A stretch of DNA of 31,697 bases from a virus, in IMG/VR virus record IMGVR_UViG_3300025872_000196, positions 1 through 31,697 of that record. The stretch is one strand, 5' to 3'. The translations under genes and the position numbers were made by a program. This document shows, piece by piece, positions 14,813-31,697 of this stretch. Under the pieces are notes generated by a model. It was not told the origin of the DNA. It saw only the letters and a program-made list of their open reading frames with translations, and searched no databases. How positions within the stretch are numbered: the stretch's first letter is position 1; the number at the start of each line of letters is the position of its first letter.

Positions 14813-16467
14813 CCGACAGGTGGACACCGAGCCAGTTAGCGGGGACCATCCGCTGGGTGCTCGCCGTCGAGTACGCCGGCGGCACGTGGTACCTGGCTGA
14901 CGAGGCCATGACCGTCGCGTACGGCGCGGGTACGGTCGTGCTGTCTGACGGTCTCCTCGATGTGGCGGGCACGGAGGAGGGCCTTGACCTATGGTCTACC
15001 GACGCGCCGAGGCGTAGCTGTCAGGTGGAGTTCGACCTCGGCCTCGACGTCGCCGAGCTGGTGGAACGCGGGCATGACCTCGCGGGTTGCGTCGCGGAGC
15101 TCGCGCAGCTCGCCGATGGCGACGACTGGGCAGACCGCCGACCCTTCGTGCGCGGTCGGCTTGTCGAGCCGCAGTATGGCGCGGCAGGGGAGGGCGTCCG
15201 CGCCTCCATCGAGCAGGACATCCTGAGCGATGAGACGGAGATCCGCACGGTCGAGTGTGCCGCGCGGGACTTCGGCAACGCGGCCACGGCAGTAACCGGA
15301 CACGCCTACCTCGAGGCTCTAAGCGAGAGCCAGGGCGAAGACGTGCAAGCTTCCATCACGCCGCCGATCATCCTCGGGACTCCCGGTGCCGGGACCATTC
15401 CCGGCTCGCCTGCGACACGCGTCCGGTGGTTCCAGGACGTCGCCTCAGGCGATTACTATTACTACTGGGTCATTGCCGGTCACGCCGTCGAGGCAACCAC
15501 GGTCACTCTTCGCGCGACCGACGGCACCGAGGCCACCTTCCCGGTGTACGTGGTGACCTTGCCCAGCGGCATCGTCGTGTCGTTTGTCATCGACAACGTC
15601 GACGCGGCGTCACCGAGCTGGACCAACACCACCGAGAGCGCCGTCGTCATCTGGGATAACGGCGGCGGGTTGGTCGACCAGAACTACGGACCCCTGCGGT
15701 ACGGCGGCGACTATGTGGCGTGGCTTCTCGCGCTCACCGAGCAGGACATCGACCATGCGCGGGTCAACGTCGCGCGCGAGCAGCTCCGCGGCTACCAAGT
15801 CGCGGCCTACCTGAACGACTCCGTCCTCGTCGCGGACTACATCCGCGAGGTCGTGCTGGACGTCCTCCCGGTGTCCTTCACGGTGGGGCCTCGGGGCGTA
15901 TACCCGTACGTATGGCGGTGGGACGCTACCGTCGCCGATGCCGTGTGCGAGTGGAACCTCACGGAGGACTTCGACATCGCGCGCGAGGGCCTCGTCACGT
16001 ACGAGGACGCCGACAAGATCGTAAACACCCTACAGCTTCGGTACGGTTGGCGTCCTCGGCGAGAGGAGTACGCCTACGAGATGTGGGCAGTGGGCGACCC
16101 TGCCTCGCGCCCTCGCGGGCTGCGCTTTGGTGGCGCGGCATCGCTTGCGCTGTCGTACTGGAGCGACCCGCTCCTCGCGCGCAGCCTGTCCCGGTACGGT
16201 GTGCGCTCTGATGCGCTGGAAACCGCAATCGTCCACGACGACCACACGGCGACGCAGGTCCTCGCGTGGCGCTCGCGTCGGTGGGCGCTACCGTCCCGCG
16301 TGGTGGAGTACGTCGCGGCGCAGCGATGGGGCTGGGTCGAGCCGGGAGACTTCGTGGTGGTCACCGACCCCGAGCTCGCGTGGTCGAAGCGACTGTGCCT
16401 GGTGCAGTCGAGAGCGTGGGCCGAGGACGGGTCGGTGCGATACACTCTGCGCGTCCAGGAGGGCTAA
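14809..16467 (+). CDS. putative tail hub or baseplate protein
   Basis: This 552-residue protein starts at GTG within a GTGA overlap, preceded by GAGGAG. It is beta-rich with many tryptophans. It begins VLAVEYAGGTWYLADEAM, continues with the segment RRSCQVEFDLGLDV, and ends with GWVEPGDFVVVTDPELAW then RYTLRVQEG. A C-terminal domain that reads as D-P-x-D with valine-rich strands is common in hub or tip proteins of siphophages that join the tape-measure end to the fibres. I do not recognise a named family, so the call rests on position, size and general fold. The gene ends 3 bases before the next start. Confidence 0.55.
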   Translation: MTDRWTPSQLAGTIRWVLAVEYAGGTWYLADEAMTVAYGAGTVVLSDGLLDVAGTEEGLDLWSTDAPRRSCQVEFDLGLDVAELVERGHDLAGCVAELAQLADGDDWADRRPFVRGRLVEPQYGAAGEGVRASIEQDILSDETEIRTVECAARDFGNAATAVTGHAYLEALSESQGEDVQASITPPIILGTPGAGTIPGSPATRVRWFQDVASGDYYYYWVIAGHAVEATTVTLRATDGTEATFPVYVVTLPSGIVVSFVIDNVDAASPSWTNTTESAVVIWDNGGGLVDQNYGPLRYGGDYVAWLLALTEQDIDHARVNVAREQLRGYQVAAYLNDSVLVADYIREVVLDVLPVSFTVGPRGVYPYVWRWDATVADAVCEWNLTEDFDIAREGLVTYEDADKIVNTLQLRYGWRPRREEYAYEMWAVGDPASRPRGLRFGGAASLALSYWSDPLLARSLSRYGVRSDALETAIVHDDHTATQVLAWRSRRWALPSRVVEYVAAQRWGWVEPGDFVVVTDPELAWSKRLCLVQSRAWAEDGSVRYTLRVQEG

Positions 16468-21482: not shown

Positions 21483-21832
21483 TGGCCGTCACCCTCGCGC
21501 CTACGCACCTACCGCACGTACAGATCGTCGTTACCGGCGCATCGGGTACAGTTACGGAGGTCATCCTCCCCACGACGCGTCATCTCGCGATGAACCTGCA
21601 CAACCGCGACAACGCCTCGAAGAACGCGATGGTCTCCTTTGACCAGACGCTGGTCGATGGAGGCGCGGCGCCCGCCTCGGGCGGGTGGAGCATCGACAAC
21701 TATCTGAACTACAACGTCAACGGTAACGGCGCGAATGGGATGCCGAGCGTGACGAAGTTCTTCGTCTTCTCGCTTTCGCATAACGACGTTACCATCGAGG
21801 TTCTCCTGACGACAAGCAAGCCCGCCAACTAG
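21482..21832 (+). CDS. small hypothetical protein, probable virion or accessory protein
   Basis: This 116-residue protein is beta-rich (HVQIVVTGASGTVTEVILPT then asparagine- and glycine-rich turns SIDNYLNYNVNGNGANGM) and ends in IEVLLTTSKPAN. It could be a decoration or fibre-type protein displaced behind the lysis genes. Its stop codon overlaps the stop codon of the convergent sliding clamp gene within the 4 bases CTAG, leaving no space for a terminator between the two operons. Confidence 0.6.
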   Translation: MAVTLAPTHLPHVQIVVTGASGTVTEVILPTTRHLAMNLHNRDNASKNAMVSFDQTLVDGGAAPASGGWSIDNYLNYNVNGNGANGMPSVTKFFVFSLSHNDVTIEVLLTTSKPAN

Positions 21833-22935
21833 TCCAGGCGTACCGGCATCACCACGTAGAACGCCGACGCGTCTCCTCGCGGCTCGAGAATGAGCGGCGC
21901 AATAGCACCGCCGCTCTTCATCACGACGTCCCCTTCGGGACAGGCCGCGAGAGCATCGCCGATGAATGCGGCATTGAGCCCGAGGGAGAGCGGCGTATCG
22001 GCCTCGCACGGGACCTCGTCTCGCGCCGACATCACGTCAGCCTGAGTGGCGCTTAGCACCAGACCATCGCTACCGAACGAGAAACGCACCGCCTTCGCGT
22101 TGTCTCGGGCTGCGAGCTTCACGCGCTTGAGCGCGTTCCCGACGGCGTCGCGGTCAACGATGAACCGATGCTTGTGCGTAGCGGGGAGGACTTCCTTGTA
22201 CGACGGAAAGTCGGCTTCTAGGAGGCGCACGTAGAGGCTCGCCACGGCGCCCCAGTGGATGTGTACCACCTTGTCGCCGTACTTCATCTGCACGACGTCC
22301 TCGACGTCCCCGAGGAGGCGCAGGAGCTCCGCGGCGCCACGACGCGGGAACAGCGAGCGCCTCGGGAGGTCGCCCTGGTGCGTCGCCGATACCTCCACGC
22401 GTGCGAGACGGGACCCGTCCGTGGTGACCATGCCGAGCGCGCCCTGAACCAGCTCGAGGTGCACGCCGCCGAGCATGTACCGGCTGTCGTCGTCAGCCAT
22501 CGCGTGCGACACGGCGCGTAGCCCGCGGCGCAGGTCTGCCGCAGACACGGTGATGGTACACGCAGAGGCATCGACCTGCGCCGTCGGCGGGAACTCTTCG
22601 GTCGGGAGCGTGGGCAGCTTGAACGTGGAGCGCCCCGCAGCCACCTCGAGCATCGTCTCCCGCAGAGTCATGGTGACGGAGCCTGCGGGGAGCACGGACG
22701 CCACGTCCCTTAGGCGCGAGGCATCCACGCAGACGCGGAGCTGGTCGCTCACCACGTCGACCGGGTACAGGCCCACGAAGGTGCAGACCGTGTCGCGTGC
22801 GGTCACGAGAAGCTGACCCGCTCCGTTGACGTGGAGGAGGGCGGCTGCGCCGATGGGCGCGCCCGACTTGTCGGCGATGCTGGCGGCACGGTTCGCCGCC
22901 TGGGCGAGGACCGCCCTGTCAATGATGATGCGCAC
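21829..22935 (-). CDS. dnaN: DNA polymerase III sliding clamp (beta subunit)
   Basis: This 368-residue protein is the full length of a bacterial clamp, the ring that tethers polymerases and repair factors to DNA. GTG at 22935 was chosen: a GGAG site lies 7 bases upstream, the product starts RIIIDRAVLAQ as clamps do, and its G is shared with the TAG of the gene before. The three similar domains can be followed; a central SRYMLGGVHLEL, then TTDGSRLARVEV and VDRDAVGNALKRVKL are clamp signatures. It ends YVVMPVRLD, close to the usual M-P-M-R-L end. It lies last in the minus-strand recombination operon. No DNA polymerase gene is present here, so it must serve a host polymerase or another partner. 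Confidence 0.9.
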   Translation of the reverse strand: MRIIIDRAVLAQAANRAASIADKSGAPIGAAALLHVNGAGQLLVTARDTVCTFVGLYPVDVVSDQLRVCVDASRLRDVASVLPAGSVTMTLRETMLEVAAGRSTFKLPTLPTEEFPPTAQVDASACTITVSAADLRRGLRAVSHAMADDDSRYMLGGVHLELVQGALGMVTTDGSRLARVEVSATHQGDLPRRSLFPRRGAAELLRLLGDVEDVVQMKYGDKVVHIHWGAVASLYVRLLEADFPSYKEVLPATHKHRFIVDRDAVGNALKRVKLAARDNAKAVRFSFGSDGLVLSATQADVMSARDEVPCEADTPLSLGLNAAFIGDALAACPEGDVVMKSGGAIAPLILEPRGDASAFYVVMPVRLD

Positions 22936-23246
22936 TAGCGAGCTCCTGCCTGCCGGATGCGGCAGTCCCAAAGGTGTTCGGAGGTGGGGGCGAGACAGGC
23001 GGGACACTGGTCCGTGTCTCCGATGTACAGCGAGGCAGGCTCGGCCATGACCTCGGCAAGGGTGGCGAGCTGGGCGCGGTCGTGCAGGAGAGCGCGCTCC
23101 TGCTCCTCGGCGAAGGCTTCGACCTCGTCAAGCTGCACCATGCAGACCTTGACCGCGTTGATGTGAGCGATGCGCCGCTCCATCGTGTACTTGTGGAGCA
23201 CGGCCTCCAGGCGCTGCCGCATCATGTGCGACGAGATCAGCGCCAC
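22935..23246 (-). CDS. small hypothetical protein with C-terminal cysteine motif
   Basis: This 103-residue protein is set to start at GTG 23246, with GAGG 6 bases upstream, overlapping the Gp157-like gene by 10 bases. The first 70 residues are helical (RQRLEAVLHKYTMERRIAHI then EEQERALLHDRAQLATLAEV). The end holds C-P-A-C and a later cysteine (DQCPACLAPTSEHLWDC), which with a nearby histidine could bind zinc. It lies between a Gp157 protein and DnaN and is therefore probably part of recombination or replication. No family is recognised. Confidence 0.6.
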   Translation of the reverse strand: MALISSHMMRQRLEAVLHKYTMERRIAHINAVKVCMVQLDEVEAFAEEQERALLHDRAQLATLAEVMAEPASLYIGDTDQCPACLAPTSEHLWDCRIRQAGAR

Positions 23247-26766: not shown

Positions 26767-27732
26767 ATGACGACCATCGAAAACGACGACTACACCATCT
26801 CCAACATGGATTGCATTCCAGGATTGATGAGCCTGCCGCACAAGTCCATAGACCTCGCGGTGTTCTCTCCTCCATTCTCGTCTCTCTACGCATACACCGC
26901 CGCAGATGCGGACATGGGCAATAGCCGCGAGAGTGACGACGAGTTCCTCCTGCACTTTGAGTTCTTCGCGGAGGCGCTGGCGCCTCTAATCAAGCCCGGC
27001 AGGAACGTTTGCCTCCACATTCAGCAGGTCTCGCGATTCAAGTCGAACCACGGCTACATGGGCTTGTTCGATATCCGAGGAGCGGTCATCCGAAAGATGG
27101 AGGCGGCTGGACTGCACTACTATGGAGACGTCACCATTCCGAAAAACCCGCAAGCGCAATCGATCCGCACGAAGTCCGCGTGCCTCACGTTTACAAACTT
27201 CGAGCGGGACTCGATGATCTCACGGCCTGCGCTTGTCGACTACCTGCTCGTATTCAAGGCTCCAGGCGAAAACATCGTCCCGGTACGACAAGATGGTAAG
27301 GACGGCTCGGTCAGCCGTGACGAGTGGATACAGTACGCCGAGGGCGTATGGGGACCATGCGACGATACTTCAGACGTAGATCTGTTTGCCGGCATGTTCG
27401 AGCGAGGAGAGCCGCTCGGCGTATGGACAGGCATTAAGGAAACGGACACGCTCAACACCGATGCGGCTAAGAGCGACCAAGATGAGCGCCACGTCTGCCC
27501 TCTACAATTGCCATTGATCGAACGATGCATCCGTCTATGGTCCAACAAAGGAGAGACGGTTCTCTCACCATTCATGGGTGTCGGCAGTGAGGGATACAAG
27601 GCATTGGAGCTTGATCGCAAGTTCATCGGGTTCGAGCTGAACCCTCGATACTTCGGGGTGGCGCGCAAGAACCTAGACCGCGTGCTCGCATCTCGTGGCG
27701 CGCAGATGGTTTTGTTCGGAGGTGCGAAGTGA
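26767..27732 (+). CDS. DNA methyltransferase, beta-class N4-cytosine/N6-adenine type
   Basis: This 321-residue enzyme should methylate an amino group of cytosine or adenine. Motif IV appears as SPPF (34-37) near the N-terminus and the AdoMet-binding motif I as SPFMGVGS (267-274) near the C-terminus, the order of beta-class enzymes (PF01555 type). HVCPLQLPLIERCIRLWS (242-259) precedes motif I as usual. Motif I begins S-P-F rather than the common D-P-F. SPP motifs lean to N4-cytosine, but target and specificity cannot be read. AAGGAG lies 7 bases upstream. It overlaps the helicase gene by 4 bases, and no restriction endonuclease is nearby. Confidence 0.85.
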   Translation: MTTIENDDYTISNMDCIPGLMSLPHKSIDLAVFSPPFSSLYAYTAADADMGNSRESDDEFLLHFEFFAEALAPLIKPGRNVCLHIQQVSRFKSNHGYMGLFDIRGAVIRKMEAAGLHYYGDVTIPKNPQAQSIRTKSACLTFTNFERDSMISRPALVDYLLVFKAPGENIVPVRQDGKDGSVSRDEWIQYAEGVWGPCDDTSDVDLFAGMFERGEPLGVWTGIKETDTLNTDAAKSDQDERHVCPLQLPLIERCIRLWSNKGETVLSPFMGVGSEGYKALELDRKFIGFELNPRYFGVARKNLDRVLASRGAQMVLFGGAK

Positions 27733-29123
27733 CCGCCGAAGAAGTGCGCATCGACATCCCGCACGGTCCCGAGGGATACGACCTATTCATCGGATGCAAG
27801 CGTTTGGCTACCTACCGCGTGGAAGGGAGGACCGTAGTCACCGATGCTACAAGCTACGCCGCGGTTTTTGGCGGTAAGATCGACACAAAGTCGATCATCT
27901 TCGATGCGCCGCACCTCATGGACTTTCAGGCGTACCTGGTGCAACGGGCTCTAGAACGGCGTCGTTTCGCGATCTTTGCTGACTGTGGCCTCGGCAAAAC
28001 TGCGATGTTCCTCGCATGGGCGCACGCAGTCGAGAAGCACGGGAAGGTGCTGATACTATGCCCTCTGGCGGTACTGAAGCAGATCAAGCGCGAGTCTGAG
28101 CGTTTCCACGGGACGACGCTGGTGGACCTGCGCGCCGGAGAGGCGTGGACTAGCGGGATCGCGATCATGAACTACGAGAGCCGTCGCGACATCGACATGC
28201 GTGGCGTTGCGGGCATCATCCTAGATGAGTCCAGCATCTTAAAGAACGACGCAGGTGAGACGCGCGACTTCCTCATCTCCCTGTCCTCGAACATCCCCTA
28301 CCGTCTGGCCACGTCGGCCACTCCCGCGCCCAATGACCATGCCGAATACGCGAGCCATGCGGTATTCCTCGGCTATGCGCGCACCGCAAAGGAGTTCTAC
28401 TCGCAGTTCTTCCGTAAGGACGGAGCCGATTGGATACTTCGTGGTCACGCCATCGAGCCGTTCTATCGGAATCTGTCTGCGTGGAGCACGTACATGCACA
28501 GCCCACGCGCCCTCGGGTTCAAGCAGACTACGGAGATGGGCGACGAGCCAGACTACATCTTCAAGCATGTAGCCGTCCACTCTGGGTTCAAGGTTAGGAG
28601 CGGCAATATGTTCGCGTCGGCTGAGTCGGCAGAGGACAGGTCGTTCGTGTTTGGCGAGCTCAGGTCTACACCGGGACCGCGTCTCTCGGCTATCGGCGAG
28701 TACCTGCAAGGCAAGCGAGGCATCATCTGGTGCGGGAGGAACGCGGAGGAAGATGCAATCCGCGCGATGCTTGGAAAGGACGTTCCCGTGGTCAACGGAG
28801 CCATGCCTGTCGAGGAGCGCGTGGAGATTGTCGATGCGTACCGCGCGGGGTCCATCCGGCACATCATCAGCAAACCGAAGGTGCTCGGGTTCGGCGTGAA
28901 CATCCCCGAATGTGACCACATGGTCTATTCGGGCTTCGGCTGGAGCTTCGAGCAGGTATACCAAGCCGTGCGTCGTGCTCATCGATATGGGCGTACCGGA
29001 CGCCTAGAGGTCATGTTCCCATTCACAGACCCCGAGGCTCCCGTGCTGAAGGTCCTACGCGAGAAGATGGACAGATTCTCGGGTGACGTACAGATCATGC
29101 AGGGCAGGTTCTGGCGGGGGTGA
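27729..29123 (+). CDS. SNF2/DEAD-like superfamily 2 helicase
   Basis: This 464-residue protein carries helicase motifs: Walker A DCGLGKT (85-91), DESS (166-169) as motif II, SATP (196-199) as motif III, and a C-terminal motif V/VI region with KVLGFGVNIPECDHMVY (384-400) and YQAVRRAHRYGRTG (411-424). It is SNF2-like in type, with a short insertion and no nuclease domain. The GTG start overlaps the methyltransferase stop, and the pair shares an AT-richer composition. Its partner and substrate are unknown; it could remodel DNA for methylation, protect the genome, or act in replication or anti-restriction. Confidence 0.85.
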   Translation: MTAEEVRIDIPHGPEGYDLFIGCKRLATYRVEGRTVVTDATSYAAVFGGKIDTKSIIFDAPHLMDFQAYLVQRALERRRFAIFADCGLGKTAMFLAWAHAVEKHGKVLILCPLAVLKQIKRESERFHGTTLVDLRAGEAWTSGIAIMNYESRRDIDMRGVAGIILDESSILKNDAGETRDFLISLSSNIPYRLATSATPAPNDHAEYASHAVFLGYARTAKEFYSQFFRKDGADWILRGHAIEPFYRNLSAWSTYMHSPRALGFKQTTEMGDEPDYIFKHVAVHSGFKVRSGNMFASAESAEDRSFVFGELRSTPGPRLSAIGEYLQGKRGIIWCGRNAEEDAIRAMLGKDVPVVNGAMPVEERVEIVDAYRAGSIRHIISKPKVLGFGVNIPECDHMVYSGFGWSFEQVYQAVRRAHRYGRTGRLEVMFPFTDPEAPVLKVLREKMDRFSGDVQIMQGRFWRG

Positions 29124-29126
29124 TGC

Positions 29127-30002
29127 TTGACGATGTGCGCGTATGCCCTGCGCTATGCAGCGGCGGGGATGCGTGTGCATCCCCTGTACGAAGTAGACCC
29201 GGGCACACAGACCTGCGCTTGCCAATCAGGCGCGTCGTGCACCGAGAAGCAACGCGGCAAACATCCGCGCCTCGGAGGCTGGCAGCAAAAGGCGACTACT
29301 GACGCCGACGAGGTCCGCGCATGGTGGTCGCGATGGCCGCGTGCGGGCGTGGGCCTCGCCACGGGCAGCGCCTCCCGGTGCTGGGTGCTGGACCTCGACG
29401 GGCCTGAGGCGGGCGCGTGGTACGAGGCGCAGGTCGCGCGGCACGGGCTTACGCGCACGCTGGGCGTGCACACCTCGCGAGGTTTTCACCTCTATTGGAG
29501 GTGGTCGCCCGACGCGATGGTACGGAACGCCCAGGGGCTGAAGGCTGTGGGCGCACCGAACGTCGACGTGCGCGGCGAGGGCGGGTACGTCTGCGCCCCG
29601 CCGACGGTGCATCGCAGCGGGCACGTGTACGCGTGGGAGACGCAGCTTGGCGCGTTTCAGCGGGAAATGGTCGAGGCTCCGGCGTGGCTGCTCGACATCG
29701 TGAAGGAGAAGCCGAAGCCGAAGCGGGAGTTCCAAGCGCCGGCCTGGGCAGTCACCGAGCACGAGCTCGCGAGAGAGATCCGCACGCGTCTCGACCACGA
29801 CGAGCGCCTCCGGCAGACCGTGGGGCTAGAGCTCGGCGGGACCTTCCGTCCGGCGGCACGCCCATATGTGGATGACTTGCGGTGTCCGAACTGCGGAGAC
29901 CGAGAAGCTTGGTACTACATCGACGCAGGCCCCGTGGTCTGCCATCATCGCAACTCGTGCGGATGGGCGGGAAGCCTTGACGCGCTCAGGAGGCAATCGT
30001 GA
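29127..30002 (+). CDS. bifunctional primase-polymerase with zinc-ribbon end
   Basis: This 291-residue protein starts at TTG 29127 (GGGGG 6 bases upstream), or at ATG 29133. The N-terminal prim-pol domain (PF09250 type) shows a cysteine-rich loop C30-x-C32 and C38 before KHPRLGGWQ, the metal pair D89 and D91 in VLDLDG, H121 in TSRGFHLYW and D147 in NVDVRGEGGYV. The end has C253, C256, C272 and C278, a zinc ribbon like that which helps primases choose start sites. It would lay primers at the phage origin. It overlaps the helicase gene after it. Confidence 0.9.
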   Translation: MTMCAYALRYAAAGMRVHPLYEVDPGTQTCACQSGASCTEKQRGKHPRLGGWQQKATTDADEVRAWWSRWPRAGVGLATGSASRCWVLDLDGPEAGAWYEAQVARHGLTRTLGVHTSRGFHLYWRWSPDAMVRNAQGLKAVGAPNVDVRGEGGYVCAPPTVHRSGHVYAWETQLGAFQREMVEAPAWLLDIVKEKPKPKREFQAPAWAVTEHELAREIRTRLDHDERLRQTVGLELGGTFRPAARPYVDDLRCPNCGDREAWYYIDAGPVVCHHRNSCGWAGSLDALRRQS

Positions 30003-31252
30003 CCGACGCAGACATCGCCGCCCTCGCGGGCATTACCGTCCTCCCGATGGCGCGCGACGCCGCGGTGTGGGACATGCTGGACCGCAGCGCGGACAAGTTC
30101 GACGGGAAGACCGGCGCGCTCATCCGTCCCGGTGACCCGAAGGGCCACCGCGATAACGTCCAGCTCATTCTCGCGCATGACCCGTGGTGGGCGACCGCGT
30201 TCGCGTACAACACGCTCTCCGAGCGCGTGGAGTGGGTGCGCCGGGATGGTGAGACGGTCGCCGTCGATGACCACCACGAAGCGGAGATCGGGCTGACGCT
30301 CGCGAGGCAGTACGGCATCCACGCACCGACGGCGGTAGTGCACGAAGCCGTCGCGTGGGCGGCGCACCGCCATACCTACAGCCCCGTCGAGGACTACCTC
30401 GAGGCGTTGGAATGGGACGGGGTCGAGCGCATATCCACGTGGTGCTCGCGCTACCTCGGTGCGCCTGCCGACCAAGTGACGCAGGCGATGGGCCGCGCGT
30501 GGCTTATTCAAGCGGTGGCACGTGCACTGAACCCCGGATGCAAGGCCGACACGGTGCTCATCCTGCGAGGACGCCAGGGGAGCGGGAAGAGCACGTCCCT
30601 CGCCATCCTCGGCGGTGATTGGTTCCGAGACACGCCCATCGACCTCGCGAGCAAAGACCGCTTCTCGGCCCTACAGGGCGCGTGGATCTACGAGCTGGCC
30701 GAGCTCGACTCTTTGCGTCGTGCGGAGGCTCAGACGCTAAAGGCGTTCGTCTCCTCGCAGCGGGACTCCTATCGTCCGAGCTACGGACGGAACACGCGCG
30801 ACGTCCCGCGCACGACGGTCTTCGCAGGGACGACGAACGACGACGAGTTCCTACAGGACGCAACGGGCTCGCGCCGTTGGTGGGTCATCGAGACGACCAC
30901 GTGCGACGCGCCCACCCTGCGACAGGACCGGGACCAGCTCTGGGCCGAAGCCGTCCACGCGTACCGTCAGGGCGAAGGCTGGCACCTTGAGACCGACCTC
31001 GAGGAGAGCCGCGCCGTCATGGCGCAACGGTACGAGGTGAGCGATCCGCTGGCTGCGCCGTTTGAGCTTTGGTGCGACGCGCGGCATGACTTCACGGTCT
31101 CGGAAGCGTGGGCTGCGCTGGGCTACCTTACGCCGCCTCTGGCTCGAGATGGTCAACGCCTGGGCAAGCTGATCCGCCAGCTCGGGCTTCACGTCGCGGG
31201 GAAGGTTGTGCGGAACGGGAAGCGCGTCAACGGGTACAAGCTCGCCGACTAA
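29999..31252 (+). CDS. VapE/D5-type replicative helicase
   Basis: This 417-residue ATPase is of the virulence-associated E/phage D5-like type (PF05272 pattern). Walker A is GRQGSGKS (191-198), a Walker B-like WIYELAELD follows (229-237), the sensor motif TTVFAGTTN ends in N280, and an arginine-finger pair R292-R293 lies in GSRRWW. The N-terminal 120 residues probably bind DNA or the primase. The start is GTG with AGGAGG 5 bases upstream. With the prim-pol in front and an iteron cluster just behind, it is the likely origin-opening or unwinding helicase. Confidence 0.9.
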   Translation: MTDADIAALAGITVLPMARDAAVWDMLDRSADKFDGKTGALIRPGDPKGHRDNVQLILAHDPWWATAFAYNTLSERVEWVRRDGETVAVDDHHEAEIGLTLARQYGIHAPTAVVHEAVAWAAHRHTYSPVEDYLEALEWDGVERISTWCSRYLGAPADQVTQAMGRAWLIQAVARALNPGCKADTVLILRGRQGSGKSTSLAILGGDWFRDTPIDLASKDRFSALQGAWIYELAELDSLRRAEAQTLKAFVSSQRDSYRPSYGRNTRDVPRTTVFAGTTNDDEFLQDATGSRRWWVIETTTCDAPTLRQDRDQLWAEAVHAYRQGEGWHLETDLEESRAVMAQRYEVSDPLAAPFELWCDARHDFTVSEAWAALGYLTPPLARDGQRLGKLIRQLGLHVAGKVVRNGKRVNGYKLAD

Positions 31253-31339
31253 GCCGCGTCGTGTCCACCCTTGCTGTTTGGTGTCCACCCTTGTGTCCAC
31301 CCTTGTCCACCCTCAAGGATGTAGTCCCCGTCTAGGTTG

Positions 31340-31356
31340 TCTAGGGTGTCCACCCT
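31340..31356 (+). repeat. TCTAGGGTGTCCACCCT repeat, first copy
   Basis: A 17-base unit whose second copy at 31472-31488 differs by one base. Each contains AGGGT and ACCCT arms, so each is itself an inverted repeat around an iteron core. Confidence 0.85.
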
Positions 31357-31471
31357 GTCCGGGTAACTTTAAACTTTTAGAGAGAATAGAAAGAGAGAGA
31401 GAGACATGGAAACGCGTGGACAGGGTGGACAGGGTGGACAGAACCTACGGCGATGCAGTCGGCGTCTACGT

Positions 31472-31488
31472 TCTAGGGTGTTCACCCT
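31472..31488 (+). repeat. TCTAGGGTGTTCACCCT repeat, second copy
   Basis: Second copy of the 17-base unit, with TTC instead of TCC. It is followed by CACCCTT (31483-31489) pairing with AAGGGTG (31498-31504) across an 8-base loop. Confidence 0.85.
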
Positions 31489-31697
31489 TGCCGGCGTAAG
31501 GGTGGACAGGGTGGACACTGTGGACGGCGTAGACCATCGGGCTAGACTTGACCTCGAGCGTGCGGTCCTCGGCATGGTGCCTGGGGACCGCGTCCTCCGA
31601 TGCGCTCGGACGATAGCGCAGCCCTGTCCAAGTCAGCCTTGCCTCGCGGGCAGGGTTGTCGTGTGTCTGGGGGCCTCCATACCCCGACCTCCTTCGC

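Follow-up and report, generated by a model that had tools for sequence, protein, structure and literature searches.

The repeat cluster at positions 31261-31518 of the window, by which we mean the whole 31,697-nt stretch of viral DNA analysed here, is very probably a replication origin for which the VapE-type helicase encoded just upstream serves as its own initiator. In the proposed mechanism the C-terminal winged helix of each VapE subunit would physically bind and read one 9-10-bp iteron, and two mirror-image half-arrays would seat a pair of VapE hexamers facing each other across an AT/GA-rich core. The DNA would be melted at the core between the hexamers, the helicases would load themselves without DnaA, and the neighbouring Prim-Pol would prime and start synthesis, so that replication would actually initiate at this place. 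The case is built on comparative and statistical grounds, namely the repeats, their geometry, their family-wide placement beside VapE, the covariation of unit bases with VapE residues and the structural match to PriRep1. An origin had been proposed for this segment in an earlier note made from the letters of the DNA, and the proposal is supported by the finding of repeats just downstream of VapE in most VapE lineages. The features of the replication region and of the two ends of the window are as follows.

29127-30002, plus strand: Prim-Pol primase-polymerase gene (Pfam PF09250, E 1.4e-38)
29999-31252, plus strand: gene of the VapE-type SF3/D5-like helicase, the putative initiator, 417 aa (Pfam PF05272, E 1.2e-79; AlphaFold model with pLDDT 90; 7pds match)
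31040-31249, plus strand: predicted C-terminal winged helix of VapE, approximately residues 348-417 (model; covariation in relatives)
31261-31313, plus strand: left outer array, forward units starting at 31262, 31282, 31294 and 31304 (repeat count, one-mismatch scan)
31347-31355, plus strand: inner unit of the left half, 43 bp from the outer array towards the core (one-mismatch scan; the relative L006 has a second tandem copy here)
31356-31414, no strand: core, an AT-rich stretch and then a (GA)n purine tract; candidate unwinding region (composition)
31415-31440, minus strand: right inner tandem array, reverse units starting at 31415 (one mismatch), 31424 and 31433, in 9-bp steps
31479-31486, plus strand: lone inverted unit of the right half, TGTTCACC, identical to the type 1 repeat of P4
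31501-31517, minus strand: right outer array, reverse units starting at 31501 and 31510
2-10, no strand: probable left cohesive-end sequence CTCCTTCGC, a repeat of the right end
31689-31697, no strand: probable right cohesive-end sequence CTCCTTCGC, repeated at 2-10

Ten copies of TGTCCACC were counted in the 31.7-kb window, against 1.25 expected and a maximum of 5 in 100 shuffles. Nine of these copies lie inside 31262-31517, the sole copy outside the cluster being that at 14819, and when one mismatch was allowed the cluster comprised 11 units, nine exact and two one-base variants. The unit is better written as TGTCCACCCT. No other 400-bp stretch of the window contained an 8-mer repeated more than four times. 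The left block is forward throughout and the right block is reverse save for the unit at 31479. The earlier note had described about ten near-identical units, those of the left block forward and most of those of the right block reverse, with an AT-rich stretch between the blocks and a position directly after the prim-pol and VapE genes. Each of these observations was borne out, with the refinement that the (GA)n tract comes after the AT-rich part; both genes gave Pfam matches, and the array region begins nine bases past the end of VapE. Two of the units are embedded in near-palindromes, AGGGTGTCCACCCT and AGGGTGTTCACCCT (31341-31355 and 31473-31487), which have the same orientation and are both preceded by TCTAGGG.

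The core between the half-arrays measures 59 bp and holds a 17-nt purine run; the GC content was 0.42 at 31360-31419 compared with approximately 0.67 for the genome. No DnaA box (TTWTNCACA), as expected of a DnaA-dependent origin, was found anywhere in the window. An ATG ORF running from 31406 through the repeats is not conserved (the relatives have 97+, 42 and 111+ aa, with differing endings), so the array region is probably non-coding, and the iterons were rejected as part of a gene. The repeats could also be operators, through which VapE or another regulator would switch the late genes or repress its own operon. The array does separate the early module from the late genes and an initiator may also autoregulate, but neither a sigma-70-like promoter nor a terminator was detected at 31200-31697 (the promoter search covering the sigma-70-like type), and some ten units placed downstream of VapE and mirrored over an AT-enriched core have the layout of an origin. 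An operator function was therefore considered very unlikely.

The best structural match of the modelled VapE was the SaPI PriRep1 protein with double-stranded DNA (7pds), with a Z score of 34.2 and 386 residues aligned over residues 21-417, and the profile match to 7pds reached E 1.2e-102. Family matches of the protein were confined to VapE-like and DUF5906. The AlphaFold model predicts a winged helix at the C-terminus, with helices at residues 352-360, 367-373 and 382-394 and a hairpin at 397-415. A Pfam scan of this tail gave no family, and none of the Foldseek matches to the tail model reached E <= 0.001; several winged-helix DNA-binding proteins were among the weak top rows above this threshold. 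BLAST of the window VapE against the P4 alpha and Sfi21 D5 proteins gave no direct sequence link, with no significant similarity between alpha and VapE.

The earlier note had named the absence of the units beside homologous helicase genes in close relatives as an outcome speaking against an origin. This outcome was not encountered: arrays are present in L006, L007 and L008, whose VapE proteins are 94, 89 and 82 % identical to that of the window, respectively, and the (GA)n tract of the core is also conserved in all three. In L007 most units read TGTCCGAC in place of TGTCCACC, with 9 GTCCGA matches; the unit at the position of 31479 still reads TGTCCACC and one unit has been lost. That so many copies changed in parallel points to a single reader acting in trans. 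Compared with that of the window, the winged helix of L007 carries V399A, N411H and K414N, among other differences.

The placement of repeats relative to VapE was established in two sets of loci. The first comprised 51 loci with VapE identity below 85 %, and the strongest repeat cluster of each locus lay within approximately 1.2 kb downstream of VapE in 41 cases, was tied in 3 and lay elsewhere in 7, with 16 % of windows expected. In the second set, 81 non-redundant VapE loci were subjected to a motif search against control windows; the downstream region outscored every control window in 55 loci (17.4 expected) and the other 26 had no winning cluster downstream of VapE. The unit differs from lineage to lineage (Pseudomonas has TGTCCCAC and TGTCCTAC, other lineages have TGCCCAACC and TTGCCAACC) and the plan is shared: units repeated in tandem every 9 bp are followed by a spacer of 33-47 bp, an inverted unit and an outer set, all of it mirrored about an AT-enriched core.

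The geometry was quantified in 40 strong arrays. Same-strand distances peaked at 9 and 18 bp and then at 55, 64-65 and 73-74 bp, opposite-strand distances peaked near 20, 35, 45 and 54 bp, and the AT content was 0.55 in the core versus 0.42 for the locus (p 4e-9). On average 70 % of units had a mirror partner, compared with 45 % (sd of the mean 1 %) after permutation of the steps and orientations; free settings in motif finding and in choosing the core were little varied. The clearest mirror case, L187, has steps of 9 20 36 9 9 on one side, 53 in the middle and 9 9 36 20 9 on the other. The right half of the window array follows the family plan (9 9 46 22 9), and the left half (20 12 10 43), with four outer forward units and one inner unit, keeps the spacer and matches the family geometry more poorly than the right half.

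The same 40 cores were enriched in tracts of particular composition. Alternating purine-pyrimidine runs of at least 12 were present in 19 cores versus 1.2 % of control windows and runs of at least 15 in 14 cores versus 0.1 %, homopurine or homopyrimidine runs of at least 12 were found in 12 cores versus 1.5 %, and an alternating or homopurine tract occurred in 25 cores versus 2.7 %, each core being counted as a separate case in all these comparisons. Alternating or homopurine-type DNA is able to leave the B form under supercoiling, and the tracts may have a role in the opening of the core.

The covariation analysis covered 180 loci whose units read GTCC(C or T)A (effective n 34), mostly with Pseudomonas-type VapE outside the clade of the window, and all 741 alignment columns were scored as predictors of the bases. 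The top column was an Arg/Lys position in the winged helix, with normalised MI of 0.70 versus 0.21 for the next column, and it was stable at stricter thresholds; Arg accompanied C in 133 of 133 loci, and Lys accompanied T in 46 of 47. In a tree that excluded the C-terminal part of the protein, residue and base changed together in 5 of 5 supported independent pairs; the residue has only 5-6 independent changes, and the sign test gave p 0.06, five pairs being unable to reach p 0.05. For the last base (C or T) the top four columns, Met/Ile first, were all in the recognition-helix region. No winged-helix column predicted the third variable base (X in XGTCC), scored with L007 left out. The alignment equivalents of the Arg/Lys and Met/Ile sites are V399 and Q386 of the window protein. 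This comparison of hundreds of related phages suggests that winged-helix residues probably choose the iteron bases. The earlier note had supposed that the phage's own initiator binds the units, perhaps through the N-terminus of VapE. The first part of this supposition stands, as the unit covaries with VapE residues, whereas the N-terminal domain was rejected as the iteron binder, the covariation pointing to the C-terminal winged helix.

The left part of the window opens with a short ORF that has no significant family match, followed by matches to large terminase, head and tape-measure proteins, and the right part carries genes for a beta clamp, ERF recombinase, RusA, a methyltransferase, a SNF2-type helicase, Prim-Pol and VapE. 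The beta clamp is a phage-encoded homologue of that of DNA polymerase III (21829-23007, minus strand). The N6/N4 DNA methyltransferase and SNF2-type helicase genes, just before Prim-Pol (26767-29123), have a GC content of 0.57-0.60, and this lower-GC stretch was possibly acquired separately. No relatives of the window's own clade were found among the genome contigs searched, and no GenBank phage was close by DNA, terminase matches being weak only.

The two ends of the window carry the same nine bases. In the sister contig L007/L029 both ends carry CTCGTTAGC, after which one end continues with AGATCGGAAGAGC, which we take to be Illumina adapter sequence, and L006 and L008 read through the joint with nine other bases between the same flanks. 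This is the pattern of filled-in 9-nt 5' cohesive ends, and the IMG/VR virus record is therefore probably a whole cos phage genome; judging from these sequences, CTCCTTCGC and CTCGTTAGC probably mark the physical ends at cos, where a 9-nt 5' overhang differs between the sisters. The array stops approximately 180 bp short of the cohesive end at 31689-31697, and on the circular map cos is followed by the first ORF and then by the large terminase gene, as would suit packaging sites bound by the small terminase or cos machinery, like the R sites beside lambda-type cos. However, loci that lack a nearby terminase gene (CL31, L027; 2638A, L028) also have an array after VapE, and the bases of the unit covary with residues of the VapE winged helix; a packaging function was likewise considered very unlikely. 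Another very unlikely alternative is that the repeats are template start sites of the Prim-Pol rather than initiator sites: the Prim-Pol is close by and GTG motifs are the specific priming sites of the pRN1 plasmid replication protein, but arrays are also present beside VapE proteins fused to a Toprim primase (L023) and the base-predicting residues sit in the VapE tail.

The reading of the array as an origin with VapE as initiator was compared with known systems. PICI origins are located directly 3' of rep and consist of two iteron sets flanking an AT-rich region (PMC6092414), and the C-terminal domain of SaPI/PICI Rep recognises the iterons (PMC7581432). The window resembles them in the primase gene beside the helicase gene with the array immediately 3' (Prim-Pol, VapE and then repeats from 31261), in the two iteron sets around an AT-enriched core and in the homology of VapE to SaPI Rep, with the full-length match to PriRep1. 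It differs from these satellites in being a phage with its own large terminase, head and tape-measure genes and cos, and in having a separate Prim-Pol and a different unit sequence.

In P4, the type 1 repeat TGTTCACC differs from TGTCCACC by one base and is identical to the window unit at 31479, the ori steps of 10/11/22/43/10 match the right half of the window read in reverse, and crr lies 3' of alpha. On the other hand, the P4 sites are split between crr and ori approximately 4.7 kb apart, whereas the window has a single array, and alpha is a Toprim-D5_N-Pox_D5 fusion, whereas VapE of the window has no D5_N or Pox_D5. The annotated origin of Streptococcus phage Sfi21 is reported to act as an origin on infection (PMC6356513), and its gene order and overall plan are those of the window. 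Its 302 bp lie 3' of the D5 gene, after genes for a helicase, SSB, Prim-Pol and the D5-type helicase, and comprise tandem pairs at 8 bp, 44-46-bp spacers and a 76-bp AT-rich core ending in GAGAGAGAC; Sfi21 differs in its unit, GTAAC, and in its helicase, which belongs to the Pox_D5/DUF5906 type and gave no Pfam match to VapE. In SCCmec, the C-terminal domain of the D5-type helicase Cch2 binds in isolation to repeats located downstream of the helicase gene (PMC7581432), but only three iterons were found in the binding site and the element is not a phage. Since PICI/SaPI, P4 and Sfi21 share the layout, the class of mechanism is known, and the expectation in the earlier note of a little-described system did not hold.

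The PICI paper stated that this layout is absent from any other known bacterial replicon. The layout called unique to PICIs is found widely beside the VapE genes of phage contigs and prophage-like loci. As far as could be found in the open-access literature searched, what is new is the geometry common to the arrays, the covariation of residues with bases, and the presence in the cores of tracts that are alternating or homopurine. A broader reading, for which we see about an even chance, is that VapE-type initiators across bacterial phyla use one origin blueprint with conserved geometry and drifting letters: two hexamers would face each other on mirrored half-arrays, the core between them would be alternating purine-pyrimidine or homopurine DNA with a tendency towards non-B structure, and a short winged-helix code (Arg/Lys at the V399 position, Met/Ile at the Q386 position) would set the unit specificity. 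Under such a code initiator and origin would change their specificity in step, as in L007.

VapE and D5-type helicases are common in the replication of phages and satellites, and few of their origins have been mapped. If the blueprint is true, an origin could be found by looking just 3' of the VapE gene, the DNA partner of a VapE would be partly predictable from two residues, and origin swapping could be tested with point mutants. The mirror geometry would then be a DNA blueprint for two self-loading SF3 helicases facing each other, a question shared with D5-like and papillomavirus E1-like helicases.

Similar repeats were also seen beside a different helicase class. Tandem TTGTCCACCC units at approximately 10-bp steps directly follow the gene of a 672-aa Toprim and AAA_25 primase-helicase in L011-L018 and L030-L032, and this unit is nearly the same as that of the VapE arrays.
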